The position numbers and the translations under genes are program-made. This document shows positions 31,738 to 62,494 of a stretch of DNA of 64,000 nucleotides, in pieces. How positions within the stretch are numbered: the stretch's first letter is position 1; each line of letters opens with the position of its first letter. This stretch comes from Candidatus Pelagibacter sp. HIMB1321. Lineage in GTDB: Bacteria > Pseudomonadota > Alphaproteobacteria > Pelagibacterales > Pelagibacteraceae. The stretch lies in the NCBI RefSeq assembly GCF_900177485.1, contig NZ_LT840186.1, positions 62,001 to 126,000 on the forward strand, given 5' to 3'. A model generated the notes under the pieces. That model was given only the letters and a program-made list of their open reading frames with translations. It was not told the DNA's origin and did no database searches.

Positions 31738-32205
31738 ATGTTTTTATCTACTTACGAGAACAAACTGGACAAAAAAGGGAGGGTTTCAGTGCCTGCTAGT
31801 TTTAGATCTCATTTATCTAACCTAGGTTATAATGGTGTTATTTGTTACCCTTCATTTAATAATACATCTATTGAAGCTTGTTCTCAGGATAGAATTGAAA
31901 AAATTTCATCTGCGATAGACTCTTTAAATCCTTTTGAAGAAAAAAGAGATTTTTTTGCAACATCAATTTTGGCAGATAGTACAAATCTACAGTTTGATAG
32001 TGAAGGTAGAATAACAATATCAGAAAAATTACTAAAACATGCAAAAATTAAAAATAGCATGTTGTTTGTTGGTCAAGGTCAAACTTTCCAAATTTGGGAA
32101 CCAGCAATTTTTGAAAAATTTAAGATCTCAGCTAGAAAAAAAGCAAATATCAATAGAGCTAGTCTTAAATGGGAAAAACATTTTATTAACAACGAGGGGA
32201 AATAA
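31738..32205 (+). CDS. mraZ: Transcriptional regulator MraZ
   Basis: MraZ is the AbrB-like DNA-binding regulator that opens the dcw cluster and represses it. The 155-residue protein has two SpoVT-AbrB domains: YENKLDKKGRVSVPASFRSHL (about 5-25) and the second copy at LQFDSEGRITISEKLLKHA (about 80-98). The paired DxxGR signatures are intact. Its operator lies immediately upstream. The stop is 3 bases before ftsZ, whose start is preceded by AGGGGAAATAAAAG, one of the few clear Shine-Dalgarno sequences in the region. Confidence 0.95.
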   Translation: MFLSTYENKLDKKGRVSVPASFRSHLSNLGYNGVICYPSFNNTSIEACSQDRIEKISSAIDSLNPFEEKRDFFATSILADSTNLQFDSEGRITISEKLLKHAKIKNSMLFVGQGQTFQIWEPAIFEKFKISARKKANINRASLKWEKHFINNEGK

Positions 32206-32208
32206 AAG

Positions 32209-33690
32209 ATGACAATTAACTTTAAAGCACCAGAGATCAAAGAACTGCAACCAAGACTATTAGTAATTGGAGTTGGAGGAGCAGGCGGAAATGCAATTAA
32301 TGAAATGATCGAAAATAATTTGCAAGGAGTTGAGTTTATAGCAGTTAATACTGATGCTCAGGATTTAAAATTAAGTAAAGCAAAAACTAGAATTCAATTA
32401 GGATTAAATTTAACTAAAGGATTAGGTGCTGGAGCTAAACATGATATTGGTCAAGCCGCAGCAGATGAATCTTTAAATGAAATTGTAAACACTCTACAAG
32501 GTGCTAACATGGTTTTTATTGCTGCTGGAATGGGTGGTGGGACAGGAACTGGTGCAGCACATGTCATAGCTAGAGCAGCTAAAGAGTTAAATATTTTAAC
32601 AGTTGGTGTTGTAACACTACCGTTTTTATACGAAGGACCTTCAAGAATGAGAAGAGCACAACAAGGTCTTGAGGAATTAAGAAAACATGTAGATACAATA
32701 ATTGTAATTCCTAATCAAAACTTATTTAAAATTGCTAATGAACAAACAACATTTGAAGAGTCATTTAATCTTTCAAATAATGTTTTAATGCATGGTGTTC
32801 AAAGTATTACAGATTTAATGGTAAGACCTGGTTTGATCAATCTCGATTTTGCTGATGTTGAAACTGTTATGGCTTCAATGGGTAAAGCAATGATGGGTAC
32901 AGGTGAAGCCGAAGGTGAAGGAAGAGCAATCAAAGCTGCTGAGATGGCAGTAAGCAATCCTTTGATTGATGATTATACATTAAAAGGTGCAAAGGGTTTA
33001 CTAGTAAACATTACTGGCGGCAAAGATCTTAAGCTTTTTGAAGTTGATGAAGCTGTAAATAAAGTAAGAGCTGAAGTTGATCCTGAAGCAGAACTAATAA
33101 TAGGTGCAATAACCGACTCTGAGCTTGATGGTAAAATGAGGGTTTCAATTGTTGCTACTTCATTAGATGGTCAACAACCTGAAACCAAATCAGTTATAAA
33201 CATGGTTCATAGAATACAAAATAGAAACACAGGTTATTCAGATTTTTCTAATGTTGGACCAACTGCATCATTTAATTTTACCACAAGTAGCTCAAGTCCA
33301 GTTTCTCATGGTGCAAATGCTTTAAAACTTGAAAATGAAGTAACCTCAGATACGGCTAACCAACAAGCTATTAAAGAAGAAGTTAATCAAGCCAATCATC
33401 AATACCATGAAGAACTTCTAAAAAATCAAGAAGTTGAAAATACTATTGAAGAGACTTCAAATGAGCAGGAAATTTCATTTACTGAAGAAGCTACAAGTGA
33501 AGAAAATTCTACAATTGAACAAGAAATTAAAAATGACTTAAGCGAGTTTGGAGTAGAGTCTGATGCTCCAGATTTATTCAGCAATGATAATGATACTTTA
33601 AATTCAAATGAATTGTTGTCTGCAGACAGCGATGATGAACAGGAAGATGATTTAGAGATACCAGCATTTTTAAGAAGACAAAAGAATTAA
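32209..33690 (+). CDS. ftsZ: Cell division protein FtsZ
   Basis: FtsZ is the tubulin-like GTPase that forms the division ring. The 493-residue protein has the GTP signature GGGTGTG at 109-115, the T7 synergy loop [11 protein letters not shown] at 211-221 (catalytic acidic residue), and a long acidic, Asn/Gln/Glu-rich linker at about 325-478. The conserved C-terminal peptide [10 protein letters not shown] near 482-491 normally docks onto FtsA. Its position directly after mraZ is unusual; in most bacteria ftsZ follows ftsQ-ftsA. It has a good Shine-Dalgarno (GAGGGGAAA), which fits high expression. Confidence 0.98.
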
Positions 33691-36705: not shown

Positions 36706-39567
36706 ATGTATCTTGGAAATTATATAAAAAATATAGAAAAAAAATATTCTAAGCTACAATTTTCTGGCATAGCCTTTGATAGCAGAAAAGTTAAAAAAGA
36801 TTTCATTTTTTTTGCAATTAAGGGAAATAATTTTGATGGCTATGATTATATCAATGATGCTATTAATAAAGGTTCAAAAATTATAATTTCTGAAAAAAAT
36901 ATAAAGTTAGATAAAAAAAACATCACTTTTATTAAAAGTAAAAATCCAAGAAAACTACTTTCAGAATTAACATATAAATTTTTAATAAAAAAACCAAAAA
37001 AATTAGTTGCAGTGACTGGCACAAATGGAAAATCATCTGTATCAGATTTCTATTATCAAATATTGAGTTTAAATAAAAAAAAAACTGCATCAATAGGAAC
37101 TATTGGTGTTCAATTTGAAAATAAAAATAAAGAAATAAGTAATACAACTCCTGATCCCATCAGTTTTAAAGAAACTATAAATTATCTATTAAAAAAAAAG
37201 ATTGATAATATAATTTTAGAGGCTTCAAGCCATGGTTTAAAGCAAAATAGATTAGATGGCTTGAATTTTGATATCGGTATTTTTACAAATTTATCTCATG
37301 ATCACATGGATTATCATAAAAATATCCACGATTATCAAAATTCAAAATTATATTTATTTAAAAAATTAATAAAAAAAAATGGTGTTATTATTACCGATAG
37401 CGCAATTCCACAATATAAGCTATTAAAGAAAATAGTAGAGAAAAAAAATATAAAATTACTAACAGTTTACAGTCGGAATTCTAATTTAGAATTACTTTCT
37501 CATAGATATAATAATGAACATCAAATTTTAAGCCTAAGATTAAAAAATAAAAATAAGATTATAAAATTTAAAATTAATTTAATTGGAAAAATACAAATAA
37601 AAAATATTTTAATGGCCATGTTGGCCGCAGAAAGAAGTGGCATAAATTTATTTTCCATGGCAAAATTAATGCCTAAACTTAAGCCTGCCGAAGGTAGGTT
37701 TGAAAATATTGGAAAGTTAAAAGATAATAGCAAAGTTATTTTAGATTATGCTCACACGCCTGACGCACTTAAAACGGTTTTAACCAACATCAAAGAGCAA
37801 TTTCCATATTCAAAAATCAGACTAGTCTTTGGTTGTGGTGGTGAGAGAGATAAAACCAAAAGAGCCAAAATGGGCTTAATTGCATCAAAATATGCAGACA
37901 TTGTTTATTTAACTGATGATAACCCAAGAGGAGAAAATCCTAAGACAATTAGAAATCAAATAATTAAAGGCATCAAACAAAAGAAAAAATTAATTGAGAT
38001 TTCAAGTAGAAAAACAGCAATTGCAAGATGTATTAACGATCTTCAAAGTGGTGAAATTGCAATTATAGCAGGCAAGGGTCATGAAAAGACTCAAGAATAC
38101 AAGGATAAGAAATTTTATTTTTCAGATCGAGAGGAAATTTCAAATTGTATAAAAAATAAAAATAAAAAATTATTTAATGATTATAGGTTAAATATAATTC
38201 AAGAAAAAACAAAAATATTACCTAAGAAACTTAAAATTAAAAAAGTATCAATTAATTCTAAAGATTTAAAAAAAGATGATATTTTTTTTGCAATTAAAGG
38301 AAAAAAAAATGATGGAAGCAAGTTTCTTAATGATGCTTATACAAAAAAATCATCTTTGATGATTACTCATAGATTGGTTAAAGCCATACCTTTATCTAAA
38401 CAAATTAGAGTAAATGATACGCTTAATTTTTTAACAGAGTGTGCAACTGGTTATAGGAAAAATATAAATTCATATATAATTGGAATTACAGGTAGTTGTG
38501 GTAAAACCACTTTAAAAGAATTACTTGGTAAAAGTTTAGCCAAAATTACTAAAACATATTTTTCACCACAATCATTCAATAATAAATTTGGTGTCCCATT
38601 AAGTTTATTAAATTTAAAGCAAAATGTAAATTTTGGAGTATTTGAAATTGGAATGGATAGAAAAGGAGAAATAGATTATTTATCTAAAATTTTAAAACCC
38701 AACTTGGGAATTATTACAAATATCAGCTATGCTCATTCTAAGAATTTTAAGAATATTAAGGGTATTGCCAATGCAAAATCTGAATTAATTGATAACATAA
38801 CTGATAATGGAAGTGTTATTCTAAACAAAGATGATCAATTTTATGATTTTTTAAAAAATAAATCTAAGAAAAAAAATTTAAATATTTATGCATTTAGTCT
38901 TAATAGAAATAACAAATGCTATGCAACCTTTGATAAAATTTTGATGATTAATAATAGGTATAAAATTTTTTTTAAAATTGGATCATTAAAAAAATTTTTT
39001 TACTCAAATAACAATTCTAAAAATCATATTCAAAATTTATTAGCAACATTAACAGCAATTAGTCTGTTCTTTAATTTAGAAAAAATTTCAAACAGAATTT
39101 TTTTAGATTTTCAATTACCAGATGGAAGAGGTGATTTATCTAAATTAAAATTTAATAAAAAAATTATTCATCTTATTGATGAAAGTTATAATTCTAATCC
39201 ATTATCTCTAAAAACATCATTGATCAATTTTGCGAATGTTTATTCAAAAAATAGTTTAAAACATGTTTTGCTTGGAGATATGATGGAGCTTGGTCAAATT
39301 TCCTCTAGTCACCACAAATTAATATCAAAGTTAATTAATAAATTGAATGTTCACAAAGTTCATGTTTATGGAAAAGATATTAAAGACACCTACCGGGGTG
39401 TAGTGAAACATAAGAAAGGTTTAATATTAGAAAATCTTATCGATTTTGAAAATTTTATTAAAAAAATAGTAAATTCAGAGGATTATTTAATGATTAAAGG
39501 ATCTAATTCCACTGGCCTGTACAAAAAAACCCAATTATTAAAGCAAGATAATCGTTATGGTTTATAA
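36706..39567 (+). CDS. MurE-MurF fusion: UDP-MurNAc-tripeptide synthetase / UDP-MurNAc-pentapeptide synthetase
   Basis: One 953-residue frame carries two complete Mur ligases. The N-terminal half (about 1-480) is MurE: ATP loop TGTNGKSS (104-111) and the DNPR motif (405-408) that specifies meso-diaminopimelate. The C-terminal half (about 505-953) is MurF: N-terminal domain with DIFFAIKG, ATP loop GITGSCGKTT (593-602), and the ESYNSNPLS segment. The linker near 485-505 is short and lysine-rich. No stop or frameshift separates them. MurE and MurF are separate proteins in most bacteria; fusion would channel the nucleotide tripeptide into D-Ala-D-Ala addition. mraY overlaps its end by 11 bases. 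Confidence 0.95.
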   Translation: MYLGNYIKNIEKKYSKLQFSGIAFDSRKVKKDFIFFAIKGNNFDGYDYINDAINKGSKIIISEKNIKLDKKNITFIKSKNPRKLLSELTYKFLIKKPKKLVAVTGTNGKSSVSDFYYQILSLNKKKTASIGTIGVQFENKNKEISNTTPDPISFKETINYLLKKKIDNIILEASSHGLKQNRLDGLNFDIGIFTNLSHDHMDYHKNIHDYQNSKLYLFKKLIKKNGVIITDSAIPQYKLLKKIVEKKNIKLLTVYSRNSNLELLSHRYNNEHQILSLRLKNKNKIIKFKINLIGKIQIKNILMAMLAAERSGINLFSMAKLMPKLKPAEGRFENIGKLKDNSKVILDYAHTPDALKTVLTNIKEQFPYSKIRLVFGCGGERDKTKRAKMGLIASKYADIVYLTDDNPRGENPKTIRNQIIKGIKQKKKLIEISSRKTAIARCINDLQSGEIAIIAGKGHEKTQEYKDKKFYFSDREEISNCIKNKNKKLFNDYRLNIIQEKTKILPKKLKIKKVSINSKDLKKDDIFFAIKGKKNDGSKFLNDAYTKKSSLMITHRLVKAIPLSKQIRVNDTLNFLTECATGYRKNINSYIIGITGSCGKTTLKELLGKSLAKITKTYFSPQSFNNKFGVPLSLLNLKQNVNFGVFEIGMDRKGEIDYLSKILKPNLGIITNISYAHSKNFKNIKGIANAKSELIDNITDNGSVILNKDDQFYDFLKNKSKKKNLNIYAFSLNRNNKCYATFDKILMINNRYKIFFKIGSLKKFFYSNNNSKNHIQNLLATLTAISLFFNLEKISNRIFLDFQLPDGRGDLSKLKFNKKIIHLIDESYNSNPLSLKTSLINFANVYSKNSLKHVLLGDMMELGQISSSHHKLISKLINKLNVHKVHVYGKDIKDTYRGVVKHKKGLILENLIDFENFIKKIVNSEDYLMIKGSNSTGLYKKTQLLKQDNRYGL

Positions 39568-46420: not shown

Positions 46421-47331
46421 AAACAAAAATATTAGTTATCTCTGGAGGATTCTCTAAGGAACGTGAAATAAGTATTCAGACTGGAATACAAGTAGCCAGA
46501 GAATTAAAAAAAAATGGATATATAGTTAAAGTTTGTGAACCAGATCATGAGATATATAAAATCATTAAAAAATTTAGACCAAATAAGATATTTAATGCTC
46601 TGCATGGACAGTTTGGAGAAGACGGTTATTTTCAAACAATTTTAGAAAATATTGGAATTCCTTATACTCATTCTGGAGTTGAAGCTTCAGCAAAGGCAAT
46701 GGATAAAGAAGTGTCAAAAAAATTATTTATAAAAAATAAAATTTTAACTCCAAGATATTTAAAATTTAATTTTGATAGATCTTATTCGTTGTTGCGAAAC
46801 GAAATACAAAAAAAATTTGGATTTCCAGTGGTAATTAAACCCATTGCTGAAGGCTCAAGTGTAGATGTTTTTATATGCAACAAATTGAATTTTAAGAAAA
46901 AAATTAAGTTACTTGAAAACTATAAGAAAATTTTAATTGAGGAATTTATAGCTGGAAGAGAGATACAAGCGGCTGTTTTAAGTAAAAAAAAATTAGGCGC
47001 AATTGAATTAAAACCAAAAAGAAAATTTTACGATTATGAAGCAAAGTACAACTCTAAAGCAAAAACAGAACATATAATTCCAGTAAATATTAGCAAACAA
47101 CAATTAAATACGCTTTTGAATATTTCATTAAAGGCACACAATCTAATAGGTTGTAGAGGTGTAACTAGATCAGATTTCAAACTATTCAAAAATAAATTCT
47201 ATCTTTTAGAAATTAATACACAACCAGGAATGACCAAACTTTCTTTGGTGCCAGAAATATGTGCTTATAAGGGGATAAGTTTTATTAAATTAATTGAGCA
47301 GTTGTTAGATGATGCATCAATCAATAAGTAG
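46417..47331 (+). CDS. ddl: D-alanine--D-alanine ligase
   Basis: This ATP-grasp enzyme makes the D-Ala-D-Ala dipeptide used by MurF. The 304-residue protein has GGFSKEREIS near the start, HGQFGEDGYFQTILE, VVIKPIAEGSSVDV, and the magnesium-binding EINTQPGMT. The start codon is TTG, overlapping the murB stop as TTGA; no ATG is available before the conserved region. FtsQ overlaps its end by 23 bases. Confidence 0.95.
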   Translation: MKTKILVISGGFSKEREISIQTGIQVARELKKNGYIVKVCEPDHEIYKIIKKFRPNKIFNALHGQFGEDGYFQTILENIGIPYTHSGVEASAKAMDKEVSKKLFIKNKILTPRYLKFNFDRSYSLLRNEIQKKFGFPVVIKPIAEGSSVDVFICNKLNFKKKIKLLENYKKILIEEFIAGREIQAAVLSKKKLGAIELKPKRKFYDYEAKYNSKAKTEHIIPVNISKQQLNTLLNISLKAHNLIGCRGVTRSDFKLFKNKFYLLEINTQPGMTKLSLVPEICAYKGISFIKLIEQLLDDASINK

Positions 47332-47986
47332 AAAAATACTAATTTGTTTTTTCTTATTAATAATTTTAACATCAGTTAATAATTTAAAGTATATAAATTT
47401 AGAATTTTTTAAGATTAATCAAATAAATGTTTCAGGATTAAAAAATGAGGAGAATTTAAGTTTATATAATAATATTAAGAATAATGAGAAAAAAAATATT
47501 TTTTATTTAGATGATTTTGAAATAACTAAAAAAATAAATTCAAACAATCTTGTTGAGCAGTTTCGTGTCTTTAAAAGATATCCATCAACTATTAACATTA
47601 ATCTTACTAGAACGAATTTTTTAGGAATAACCAAAATTAATAATGATGATTATTTGATAGGATCAAATGGAAAATTTATAAGGAAAACAGATGATCAATT
47701 AAATGATTTACCCTTTGTTTTTGGTAGCATGGATATTAATAATTTTTTAAAAATAAAAGAAATTTTAAAAAATTCTAAAATTGAATTAAGTAGAATTGAA
47801 AGTTTATATTATTTTAAATCAAACAGATGGGATATTAAATTTAAAGATGGTTTGATTATTCGCTTACCATCTAAACTTGATGTTAATATATTAGATAAGA
47901 TTTTTAAAATTATTGAGGACGAAAGATTTAAAAATCTAAAAACTTTAGATTTTCGACAAAAAAATCAAATCATCACCTATGAATAA
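47309..47986 (+). CDS. ftsQ: Cell division protein FtsQ (POTRA domain)
   Basis: FtsQ links FtsL/FtsB to the rest of the divisome. The 225-residue protein has a short cytosolic tail and one membrane helix at about 9-27. A POTRA domain follows directly (FKINQINVSGLKNEENLSLYN and on to about residue 100), then the FtsQ beta domain with YLIGSNGKFI and LPFVFGS. It is on the short side for the family. The order ddl-ftsQ is standard. Its end overlaps the next gene by 8 bases. Confidence 0.9.
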   Translation: MMHQSISRKILICFFLLIILTSVNNLKYINLEFFKINQINVSGLKNEENLSLYNNIKNNEKKNIFYLDDFEITKKINSNNLVEQFRVFKRYPSTININLTRTNFLGITKINNDDYLIGSNGKFIRKTDDQLNDLPFVFGSMDINNFLKIKEILKNSKIELSRIESLYYFKSNRWDIKFKDGLIIRLPSKLDVNILDKIFKIIEDERFKNLKTLDFRQKNQIITYE

Positions 47987-48677
47987 GAATCTAAATAATA
48001 AATATTTTATTATTTTGAATAAAGATGAAATTATTTTTAAATGTCTCAATTATAATAATAAAATTTCATTAACAAGAAATTATACTTTAAAAAATAATCC
48101 AGATAATTTATTAGAGGAACTTACAAATTTTTTTAATCATAATCTTATTGAGTTAGAAAAAAGTTTAAAGAATTTCATAAAAGAAATTTATATAATTATT
48201 GATACAGATGAGAATTTGAGCGTTAATCTTTCTGCTAAATATAAAGTTCAAAGTGAAAAAATTAATGGGCAAAAAATAAATGACCTATTAAGTACTTTGA
48301 AGTATCAATTTACTAAATATAGCAATGACCAAAAAGTAATTCATATGATGATTAGTAGACTACTAGTTGATGATGAGGAGAAAGATTTTCTATTTTTTAA
48401 AGAAGCTTCAGATAGTTTAACTTTAGAAGTTAATTTTAAATGTTTAAAAAATAAAACAGTACAATTTATTAAGAAACTATGTTCAAATTATCAAATTTCG
48501 GTTAAAAAAATTATGTTAGTTAATCATTTGAGACAGTTTATTGAAAACCATACAGATGATGTTGTTATTATAGCAAACAAAATTCTAAGTGGTGAAGTTA
48601 AAAATGAAGTTTTTTGGATTACTAAAAAACCTATTAATCATGGTTTTTTTGAAAAATTTTTTAAGTTTTTTAACTAA
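47979..48677 (+). CDS. Truncated FtsA-like protein lacking the ATPase half
   Basis: This 232-residue protein occupies the ftsA position between ftsQ and lpxC. Full FtsA has about 420 residues. Residues 8-22 look like the first actin-fold strands but lack the DxGxxK phosphate loop. Residues 65-190 follow the strand/helix order of the FtsA 1C (SHS2) region, with KEIYIIIDTDENLSVNLS, KVIHMMISRLLVDD and the FKCLKNKTVQFIKKLCSNYQI helix. The 2A/2B part is missing. The end, GFFEKFFKFFN, is an amphipathic helix like the FtsA membrane-targeting sequence. It overlaps ftsQ by 8 bases. The FtsA origin is inferred from position plus layout, not from a database match. Confidence 0.62.
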   Translation: MNKNLNNKYFIILNKDEIIFKCLNYNNKISLTRNYTLKNNPDNLLEELTNFFNHNLIELEKSLKNFIKEIYIIIDTDENLSVNLSAKYKVQSEKINGQKINDLLSTLKYQFTKYSNDQKVIHMMISRLLVDDEEKDFLFFKEASDSLTLEVNFKCLKNKTVQFIKKLCSNYQISVKKIMLVNHLRQFIENHTDDVVIIANKILSGEVKNEVFWITKKPINHGFFEKFFKFFN

Positions 48678-48740
48678 ATTTGTATTTTAATGTAACATTT
48701 CTTGTTTTCCTCTAAATGTTTCAAAATACTATATAAGGGC

Positions 48741-49661
48741 GTGTCATTACTAAACCAAAAAACAATCAAAAAACCAGTAAAATTTCAAGGTGTTGGTTTA
48801 CATAGTGGCAAAATTGTAAATTTATGTATCAAGAGTTTAGAGCCTAATGCTGGAATAATCTTTAAAAGAATTGATTTACAAAACAATAATTTAGTTTATC
48901 CAAATTTTAATAACGTTACAAATACCTCTTTAAATACCACTATATCAAATGAATTTGGAGTTAAAGTTTCTACTATAGAACATTTAATGGGTGCATTATT
49001 TGGACTTGGCATTGATAATGCTTTAATTGAAATAGACAATGAAGAGGTTCCTATTTTAGATGGTTCAGCGAAAGAATTTATAGAAAAAATTTTGCTTTCT
49101 GGATTTGAAGTTTCTAATCAACCAATTAAAATAATCAAAATTCTTAAAAAGGTTGAGTATAGTGAAGGTGATAGATTTATCTCTATAGAGCCTTCAAAAG
49201 TAAGTTTAGACATAAAATTTGAGCTTAAATACGAAAATCAAATTATTGGAAACCAAAAAAATAAAATTAATGTTTATGAGGATGACTTAGTTGAAATTTA
49301 TAATTCTCGAACATTTTGTTTATATGAAGATATAGAATTTATTAAAAAAAAAGGTTTAGCTAAAGGCGGTAGTTTAGATAATGCAATAGTTGTAAAAGAG
49401 AATGAAATCCTAAACAAGGAAGGATTAAGAAATAACAAGGAATTTGTAAATCATAAAATATTAGATTGTATAGGAGACCTTTATACATGTGGTTATAGAA
49501 TTATTGGAAATGTAGAGTGTTCTCAAGGAGGTCATTATTTGACTAATCAAATTTTGAGAAAAGTTTTCTCAGATAATAAAAACTTTTCTATAATAGAAAT
49601 TCAAGAAAGAAATTTACCCCACACGTTGATTAATAAAAGTTTATTGAAGTCTATAGCTTAA
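48741..49661 (+). CDS. lpxC: UDP-3-O-acyl-N-acetylglucosamine deacetylase
   Basis: LpxC performs the committed step of lipid A synthesis. The zinc site is intact: the first His in IEHLMGALFGLGID and the HKILDCIGD motif, with a further catalytic His in SQGGHYLTN. From the GTG at 48741 the protein has 306 residues and begins LNQKTIKKPVKFQGVGLHSGK, matching the usual LpxC N-terminus. The frame stays open to a TTG at 48702, but those 13 extra residues look unlike the family. The gap upstream holds TACTATATAAGGG, possibly a -10 region. In the standard order ftsZ would lie just before this gene. Confidence 0.95.
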   Translation: MSLLNQKTIKKPVKFQGVGLHSGKIVNLCIKSLEPNAGIIFKRIDLQNNNLVYPNFNNVTNTSLNTTISNEFGVKVSTIEHLMGALFGLGIDNALIEIDNEEVPILDGSAKEFIEKILLSGFEVSNQPIKIIKILKKVEYSEGDRFISIEPSKVSLDIKFELKYENQIIGNQKNKINVYEDDLVEIYNSRTFCLYEDIEFIKKKGLAKGGSLDNAIVVKENEILNKEGLRNNKEFVNHKILDCIGDLYTCGYRIIGNVECSQGGHYLTNQILRKVFSDNKNFSIIEIQERNLPHTLINKSLLKSIA

Positions 49662-61603: not shown

Positions 61604-62494
61604 TCATTTATCAATCCAATCAGGTTTCTTGATACTTATCGATGCTTCTTTTGTTGTGAATTTTGAACTCTGATCAAAATTTTTATCTAAATACTTTATA
61701 AGAGCAAAAGGATATTCGCTTTCAATTAAAACTTTTCCAATTTCAATTTCATTACTAAAAATACTTTCACCTTCATATAATTTTCCCTCAATTATATTAA
61801 TTGGTAATAATCTTTTAGAAAGTTTATTTTTTAATTTAATTCTTGCTGTATTTTCCTGGCCAACATAACAACCCTTTTTAAAATCTATTCCATTTAATTC
61901 ATCGTAGTTACACTCAATTCCAAAAAGTTTGTTTTGTAATTTATTTAAGTTCTTTGGAACTATTCCTAGTTTGTGACTGTGAGAATAATACTCTTCTATA
62001 TTTGCATTTTTTAAATCTAGTTTTTTTAGAGATAGATATAGCTTTTCTAAGTTTATTATTAATCTTGCTCCTAAATTTTTATTTCTTGGATCTAATAAAA
62101 CAGAATCCTCTCTATATTTCAAGGTGTAACCCTCAATATCTTGAGCTTTTTCTAAAGTTAAAAATTTTTGGTAAGATAATGCAGTTACAACAAATTCATT
62201 ACTTAAATCTAAAATTTCAATTTTAGATCTCAGTTTATAAACATTTAATTGTTTAAATAGTTCTTTGCTTTGATCTTTTTCGCAATCAATAAAAAAACCT
62301 GATTTATGTTTTATGATTATGAAATCAAATAAAAACTTTCCCTGAGGAGATAATAATGATCCAAAACAACTATTATCATCGCTTACTTTTTTAATATCAT
62401 TGGTTATTAAGTTTTGAAGAAAGTCTTTTACATCTTCGCCAGTTACATAAAGAACTGCTCTGTCTTTTAAAATATATACTTTATTAATATTCAT
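61604..62494 (-). CDS. ygfZ: YgfZ/IBA57 folate-binding iron-sulfur cluster protein
   Basis: This 296-residue protein resembles the T-protein of the glycine cleavage system. It has the YgfZ signature KGCYVGQENTARIK (about 208-221) with the essential cysteine. YgfZ and mitochondrial IBA57 help assemble or repair certain Fe-S enzymes in a folate-dependent way. The N-terminal region with VTGEDVKDFLQNLITNDIK fits the family. It is divergent from the dihydroorotase across 43 bases. Confidence 0.9.
   Translation of the reverse strand: MNINKVYILKDRAVLYVTGEDVKDFLQNLITNDIKKVSDDNSCFGSLLSPQGKFLFDFIIIKHKSGFFIDCEKDQSKELFKQLNVYKLRSKIEILDLSNEFVVTALSYQKFLTLEKAQDIEGYTLKYREDSVLLDPRNKNLGARLIINLEKLYLSLKKLDLKNANIEEYYSHSHKLGIVPKNLNKLQNKLFGIECNYDELNGIDFKKGCYVGQENTARIKLKNKLSKRLLPINIIEGKLYEGESIFSNEIEIGKVLIESEYPFALIKYLDKNFDQSSKFTTKEASISIKKPDWIDK

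Follow-up and report, generated by a model that had tools for sequence, protein, structure and literature searches.

In Candidatus Pelagibacter sp. HIMB1321 (assembly GCF_900177485.1), the 232-amino-acid gene between ftsQ and lpxC descends from FtsA. It is an FtsA by descent in which two defining features of FtsA are missing, and such a reduced FtsA extends beyond this one genome to many SAR11 bacteria. We read it, with a probability of roughly 0.78, as an FtsA descendant from which subdomains 2A and 2B were cut out at a domain border and that works as an ATP-independent membrane adaptor.

The ftsA locus and descent from FtsA

We analysed a stretch of 64,000 nucleotides (positions 62,001 to 126,000 of contig NZ_LT840186.1; hereafter the window) from a genome that consists of a single contig of 1,320,649 bases. 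All coordinates are positions in the window. The features of interest are listed below; subdomain borders are approximate, and domain names are assigned by homology.

32209 to 33690, + strand: ftsZ with an intact C-terminal peptide (sequence)
47309 to 47986, + strand: ftsQ, the upstream neighbour (sequence, gene order, tblastn across the fetched regions)
47979 to 48677, + strand: short ftsA gene, an FtsA without domain II, 232 amino acids with an ATG start (position in relatives, fold)
47979 to 48209, + strand: N-terminal part of subdomain 1A, residues ~1-77, phosphate-1 motif absent (secondary structure of the model, long-form alignment)
48210 to 48494, + strand: subdomain 1C/SHS2, residues ~78-172 (strand-helix-strand-strand-helix in the model, Pfam SHS2_FTSA)
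48495 to 48551, + strand: second piece of 1A, residues ~173-191, up to the deletion junction (short and long alignments)
48552 to 48611, + strand: last 1A helix region, residues ~192-211, the first after the junction (alignments, VIA-align)
48642 to 48674, + strand: C-terminal amphipathic helix GFFEKFFKFFN, membrane-targeting-like (sequence, model helix, hydrophobic moment)
48702 to 49661, + strand: lpxC, the downstream neighbour (sequence, tblastn across the fetched regions)

The start of the short gene (47979) overlaps the end of ftsQ (47986), its neighbour in the dcw cluster. The open reading frame and its neighbours agree with a preliminary description, made from the letters of this DNA, that had put a 232-residue gene in the ftsA slot between ftsQ and lpxC. 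With all gene names resting on sequence recognition, we take the cluster to run mraZ, ftsZ, rsmH, ftsL-like, ftsI, a murE-murF fusion, mraY, murD, ftsW, murG, murC, murB, ddl, ftsQ, the short ftsA and lpxC; the identities from murG to lpxC were checked by tblastn across the regions of relatives. Two side observations concern the front of the cluster. There, ftsZ lies directly behind mraZ instead of after ftsA (31738-33690), and mraZ is in the same 5-kb stretch as ftsZ in all 52 other genomes in which ftsZ was read. A 953-amino-acid open reading frame (36706-39567) reads, by sequence recognition, as a fusion of MurE-like and MurF-like ligases.

Queried alone, the window protein matched Pfam SHS2_FTSA at E 0.048 over residues 81-134 (14.5 bits, below the cut-off of 25.4) and nothing in NCBIfam, and a PF02491 search of the genome returned nothing, the short ftsA locus included. 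The comparison with FtsA and SHS2 profiles that the preliminary description had proposed gave clearer matches for the short forms as a group. A profile of 43 short forms matched the FtsA crystal chains 7q6d (E 4.7e-4, residues 47-189) and 7q6g (7.2e-4) and, more weakly, 7q6f (0.0092) and 1e4f (0.28); besides these four FtsA chains it matched one designed repeat protein (0.38). SHS2_FTSA itself was matched by 15 of the 43 at E<=0.1, with a best value of 1.6e-6, and the next family by 3. The corresponding long-form search found FtsA at E 1.4e-25. Used as a single query, the window protein found relatives in 48 of 147 genomes of the family, and a profile in which three long forms were added to the short ones found them in 175 of 250 same-genus genomes; relatives are 22-35% identical to the window protein. 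The same-genus matches are open frames of about 233 amino acids, with 370 in genome G017 and 374 in G069, and those in other genera of the family are mostly of about 395-416. A scan of contigs with the short protein as query returned no relative, and LpxC was used instead.

An AlphaFold model of the short FtsA, built with 43 short sequences, has a pLDDT of 83.8 and a pTM of 0.79 (the model of the long form of G017 has a pLDDT of 84.1). Its order is three strands, a helix and a strand (1A), strand-helix-strand-strand-helix (1C), then a return to 1A with a strand and a short helix, one more helix, a linker of low confidence and the tail helix. Every one of the top 19 chains in Foldseek is an FtsA (best E 3.3e-11, with TM between 0.50 and 0.64 by query length), counting ranks 2, 5 and 6, which belong to entry 3wt0, titled 'Cell Division Protein' and named FtsA in the long-form profile search. 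In VIA-align the first eleven entries are FtsA, with Z from 14.7 to 11.7, followed by PilM and GspL/EpsL, none above Z 10.8. The alignment pairs the model, up to residue 202-210, with FtsA residues from ~2-8 to 374-392, and because the match reaches the ends of the FtsA chain, the helix that follows the missing block takes its expected place as well.

That PilM and GspL/EpsL come next after FtsA in the fold comparisons is what would be expected if an unrelated protein, or an actin-like scaffold of the GspL/PilM type, had replaced FtsA. We consider such a replacement barely credible, since the gene occupies the ftsA position, its tail is common to long FtsA, its profile matches four FtsA chains (besides the designed repeat protein), and FtsA entries precede GspL/EpsL and PilM in both fold comparisons. 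The cytoplasmic domain of GspL/EpsL and PilM share the actin-like core with the short FtsA; they differ in belonging to type II secretion and type IV pili machines, in their gene neighbourhoods and in their lower fold scores. PilM, according to PMC7613929, has a 1C-type subdomain whose cleft binds the PilN tail. Homology to FtsA, which the preliminary description had inferred, is borne out by gene position, by long forms with a like tail in the same slot, by the profile search and by the fold comparison, and common descent with full-length FtsA is likewise seen in the family search and the alignments.

The same description had named two findings that would speak against its reading, a fold unrelated to SHS2/1C and a full-length ftsA elsewhere in the genome. 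FtsA is the best match to the predicted fold, and a search of the 1.32 Mb genome, a single contig, with three profiles turned up no full-length ftsA: profile A1, made from short and long forms, has the short ftsA as its single match; PF14450 matches just one protein, which by its sequence is MreB; and a domain II profile found nothing. The PF02491 null is uninformative for a second copy, since that search missed the short ftsA locus too. The domain II profile also bears on a split FtsA, in which domain II would come from a separate gene and reassemble with the short protein. With it, 12 of the 13 short-form genomes searched, the window's included, gave no match at E<=10, and the thirteenth (G078) gave one weak match (E 0.07, 36 positions, with a stop inside); all five long-form controls were found at E<=4e-41. 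The profile also misses MreB, and a strongly diverged domain II could escape it. We regard a split FtsA as very improbable.

Domain make-up, distribution and maintenance

When short and long FtsA are aligned, the N-terminal part, 1C, the last helix and the tail correspond, and a single block is missing from the short form. This block is 2A plus 2B, about 140-170 residues; as cut here, the 31 long forms have 142-173 extra residues at the junction. In those long forms that possess phosphate-2 and adenosine motifs, these lie within it, and PF14450, the Pfam FtsA family, matches residues 198-250 of the G017 protein, inside the block. No phosphate-1 DxG motif is visible in the N-terminus of the window's short FtsA, whereas long forms of the same genus have DxG in 23 of 23, DxGxxK in 15 of 23 and GxG[SA] in 23 of 23. 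None of the three ATP-binding motifs (phosphate 1, phosphate 2 and adenosine) was found in the window protein, and neither 2A nor 2B was seen in the alignments or in PF14450 and domain II profile searches of the genome. Motif inspection and the long-form alignment thus agree with the preliminary description that the DxGxxK phosphate loop and 2A/2B are gone. Its account of the retained part as 1C-like holds for 1C and overlooked 1A, both pieces of which are also kept in the alignments and the model; with both retained, the 1A-1C cleft survives. The 1C/SHS2 subdomain inserted in 1A is recognisable from the fold and the short-form profiles, the window protein alone remaining below the Pfam cut-off.

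The short FtsA of the window ends in HGFFEKFFKFFN, and similar tails occur in both forms, QGFFEKLFHFFK in the long FtsA of G017 and SGFFEKLFHFFK in the short one of G078. When the window's tail is shuffled, few of the resulting sequences reach its helical hydrophobic moment (rank 0.027); across 45 short forms the median rank is 0.05. Together with the helix in the model, this makes the tail a predicted membrane-binding amphipathic helix, in keeping with its earlier likening to the FtsA membrane-targeting sequence. Compared with FtsA of known structure (1e4f/1e4g, 4a2a, 3wqt, 7q6d, 7q6f, 7q6i), the short form shares the place beside ftsQ, the 1A pieces, 1C/SHS2, the last 1A helix and the amphipathic tail; it differs in having neither 2A nor 2B nor the phosphate-1, phosphate-2 and adenosine motifs, and in its length of 232 against ~370-420 residues. 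Full-length SAR11 FtsA (for example L018, L022 and L082-L095) occupies the same locus, has a similar tail and can be aligned over the whole short protein; unlike the short form it keeps domain II, and the 23 same-genus proteins keep DxG and GxG[SA], 15 of them DxGxxK.

The ftsA region was fetched from 80 genomes, which with the window makes 81; they were chosen to cover both forms, so that the counts are not frequencies. The gene is cut by a contig end in three (G297, G218, G063). The remaining 78 comprise 45 with a short gene (open frame of 220-245 amino acids), 31 with a long one (370-416) and two with a frame-shifted short gene, and long FtsA sits in the same slot in sister SAR11 lineages. 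Eight same-genus genomes were not matched by the window protein; of the six that were read (all but G105 and G127), five (G035, G097, G119, G123, G143) carry long forms and one (G063) is cut. A further 80 named SAR11 records were collected as the closest by LpxC, a choice that favours the short form; this set overlaps with the 81, some assemblies being common to both. In 63 of these 80 ftsQ is also present, and all 63 have the short ftsA; the remaining 17 yielded no ftsQ, and their stretches end no more than 850 bases from lpxC. Many of the named records carry the titles of different MAGs or isolates, which speaks against a single error of assembly. Across the window's class PF02491 matched 361 of 387 genomes, and among the matches listed the open frames have at least 414 amino acids, except for two of 228 and 345 near contig starts. 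PF02491 misses the window protein and that of G003 and is blind to forms as diverged as the window's; more short forms may therefore hide in the class beyond the best PF02491 matches listed.

Three further observations touch on FtsA variation in these bacteria. In both genomes with a frame-shifted short gene, G074 (L096) and G282 (L097), the shift lies near the N-terminus within the ftsQ-lpxC interval, and in G074, a single-contig genome, it is near a run of T and A; the shift may be a true break in the gene, an error of sequencing or slippage. Five genomes of the same class that are 98-100% complete (G446, G545, G560, G567, G642) are without an SHS2_FTSA match; FtsA may be missing from them, or it may be present in a diverged or reduced form. 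Four full-length FtsA proteins of about 400 amino acids were read from genera g2 and g4 (L112-L115; genomes G015, G102, G001 and G051), and none of them has a recognisable phosphate-1, phosphate-2 or adenosine motif, which suggests, as far as motifs can tell, a full-length FtsA without nucleotide binding.

Low identity among relatives (22-35% to the window protein) and the frame shift in 2 of 47 uncut short-form genes could mark the gene as a decaying, non-functional remnant of ftsA. The rates of change point the other way. Across nine chosen close short pairs, ftsA has a dN/dS of 0.11-0.28, the highest value coming from a pair near saturation (G342-G194), and two long pairs give 0.14 and 0.15; values for murB, lpxC and mostly ddl are lower than for ftsA, and those for ftsQ range from 0.09 to 0.49. 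Such low dN/dS indicates that the short protein is kept. The open frame is intact in 45 of the 47 uncut genes and in 63 of 63 readable named records (overlapping sets), and purifying selection together with the short form in all 63 argues against a pseudogene or an assembly error. A decaying remnant is accordingly most improbable.

Origin of the short form

We placed the two forms on a tree of MurC, MurB, Ddl and LpxC for 71 of the 81 genomes, leaving out G005, G009 and G012 (long branches) and seven in which at most two of the four genes were present. The short form appears in four places, as clades of 27 (with the window), 10 and 6 genomes and as G078, which stands beside the long-form G170 (support 94, unstarred). 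Well-supported branches force at least three changes between long and short, and a grouping of all short forms in one clade is rejected at AU p 0.003. Taken singly, with six left out, ftsQ, lpxC, ddl, murB, murC, murG and ftsZ give trees with three to four changes each. The tree of FtsA itself, drawn from the shared columns of 73 of the 76 unbroken genes, has one change, with all 45 short forms joined (support 88, unstarred); for this shared region, two groupings from the flanking genes are not firmly rejected (AU p 0.053 and 0.40). The gap starts and ends at about the same alignment columns in all four short-form groups. Judged by these sequences, deletion may have occurred repeatedly at the domain border, or a single deletion may have spread by recombination; the data fit either course. 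The grouping of the short forms in the FtsA tree could also come from convergence in the shared part.

A proposed membrane adaptor and the FtsZ tail

In the mechanism that we propose, a deletion at the domain border would have removed the second actin-like half (2A and 2B), leaving 1A, 1C and the membrane helix. The short FtsA would be anchored to the inner membrane by its tail helix and would meet late divisome proteins with its 1A-1C cleft and 1C surface, the molecules perhaps pairing through 1C. We infer that ATP binding and polymerisation are lost, that binding to the membrane and to partners is retained and that FtsZ has another tether. As the nucleotide cleft needs both halves, the short FtsA should not bind ATP, and as the lengthwise protofilament contact is IIA-IIB, it should not form an actin-like protofilament. 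PMC7613929 describes the FtsN tail binding in the IA-IC cleft of FtsA, and double filaments of FtsA with IC as the lateral and IIA-IIB as the longitudinal contact. With IA, IC and the membrane tail kept and IIA-IIB gone, a nucleotide-free adaptor for the late divisome is the natural reading. Two points stand against it. In Neisseria gonorrhoeae the contacts of FtsA with FtsZ, FtsN, FtsQ and FtsW were mapped to 2A/2B and not to 1C (PMC5727935), and by analogy an FtsA of 1A and 1C alone might be deprived of partners as well. Further, FtsN was not recognised in these genomes. SPOR domains occur in 6 of 16 genomes, all six short-form (L279-L284), and were not matched in the window's genome; the six proteins begin with a lipoprotein-like signal, unlike bitopic FtsN, and none among the 16 genomes is recognisable as FtsN.

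The deletion would also have removed the surface that holds the C-terminal peptide of FtsZ, so that another tether, or a new mode on the short FtsA, would serve FtsZ. In the structure 4a2a, the site for this peptide on FtsA is reportedly 2B. The same conserved FtsZ C-terminal peptide plus one residue is present in all 30 short-form genomes (the window and the frame-shifted G074 among them) and in all 16 long-form genomes of the same genus; in seven genomes of other genera FtsZ ends in EIPAFLRKQK (four) or a second variant (three), and one further fetched stretch has no ftsZ in it. With 2B gone and the tail still conserved, the tail is bound either by another protein or at a new site on the short FtsA. 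Neither ZipA nor SepF, the obvious tethers for which the preliminary description had suggested a search, was found at E<=0.001 in any of 12 genomes (seven short-form, five long-form), with named controls detected and ZapA present in all 12; being missing from long-form genomes too, their absence is not specific to the short form.

The conserved tail in both forms (30 of 30 and 16 of 16) and the absence of ZipA and SepF from the 12 genomes would also fit a short FtsA that still tethers FtsZ by itself, through a new surface on 1A/1C or the linker and with no other tether. This requires a replacement for the lost 2B peptide site (mapped to 2A/2B in PMC5727935), and FtsEX, FzlC and MinC are other possible binders of the FtsZ tail; we hold self-tethering to be possible but on the unlikely side. 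On the adaptor reading, which we prefer, the FtsZ tail would be held by another protein.

Position, profiles, fold and the absence of a full-length copy thus support the FtsA-derived reading of the preliminary description, whose observation stands. Among the matches listed in a search of the open-access literature, seen as titles and the beginnings of abstracts, none concerned an FtsA without domain II or a reduced FtsA in SAR11. Current models of how division is triggered centre on FtsA filaments, ATP and the contact between FtsZ and 2B. The motif loss in full-length FtsA of g2 and g4 raises the prospect that nucleotide binding may have been lost more than once in the family, and the occurrence of long and short forms within one genus is a natural experiment on what 1A and 1C are capable of and on how the FtsZ tether is replaced. 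With the odds about even, a large part of SAR11 would divide without an actin-like FtsA polymer, having lost domain II several times (or once, with recombination), with some other partner holding the FtsZ tail at the membrane and FtsA confined to the role of a nucleotide-free adaptor, made of 1A and 1C, in septal wall synthesis.
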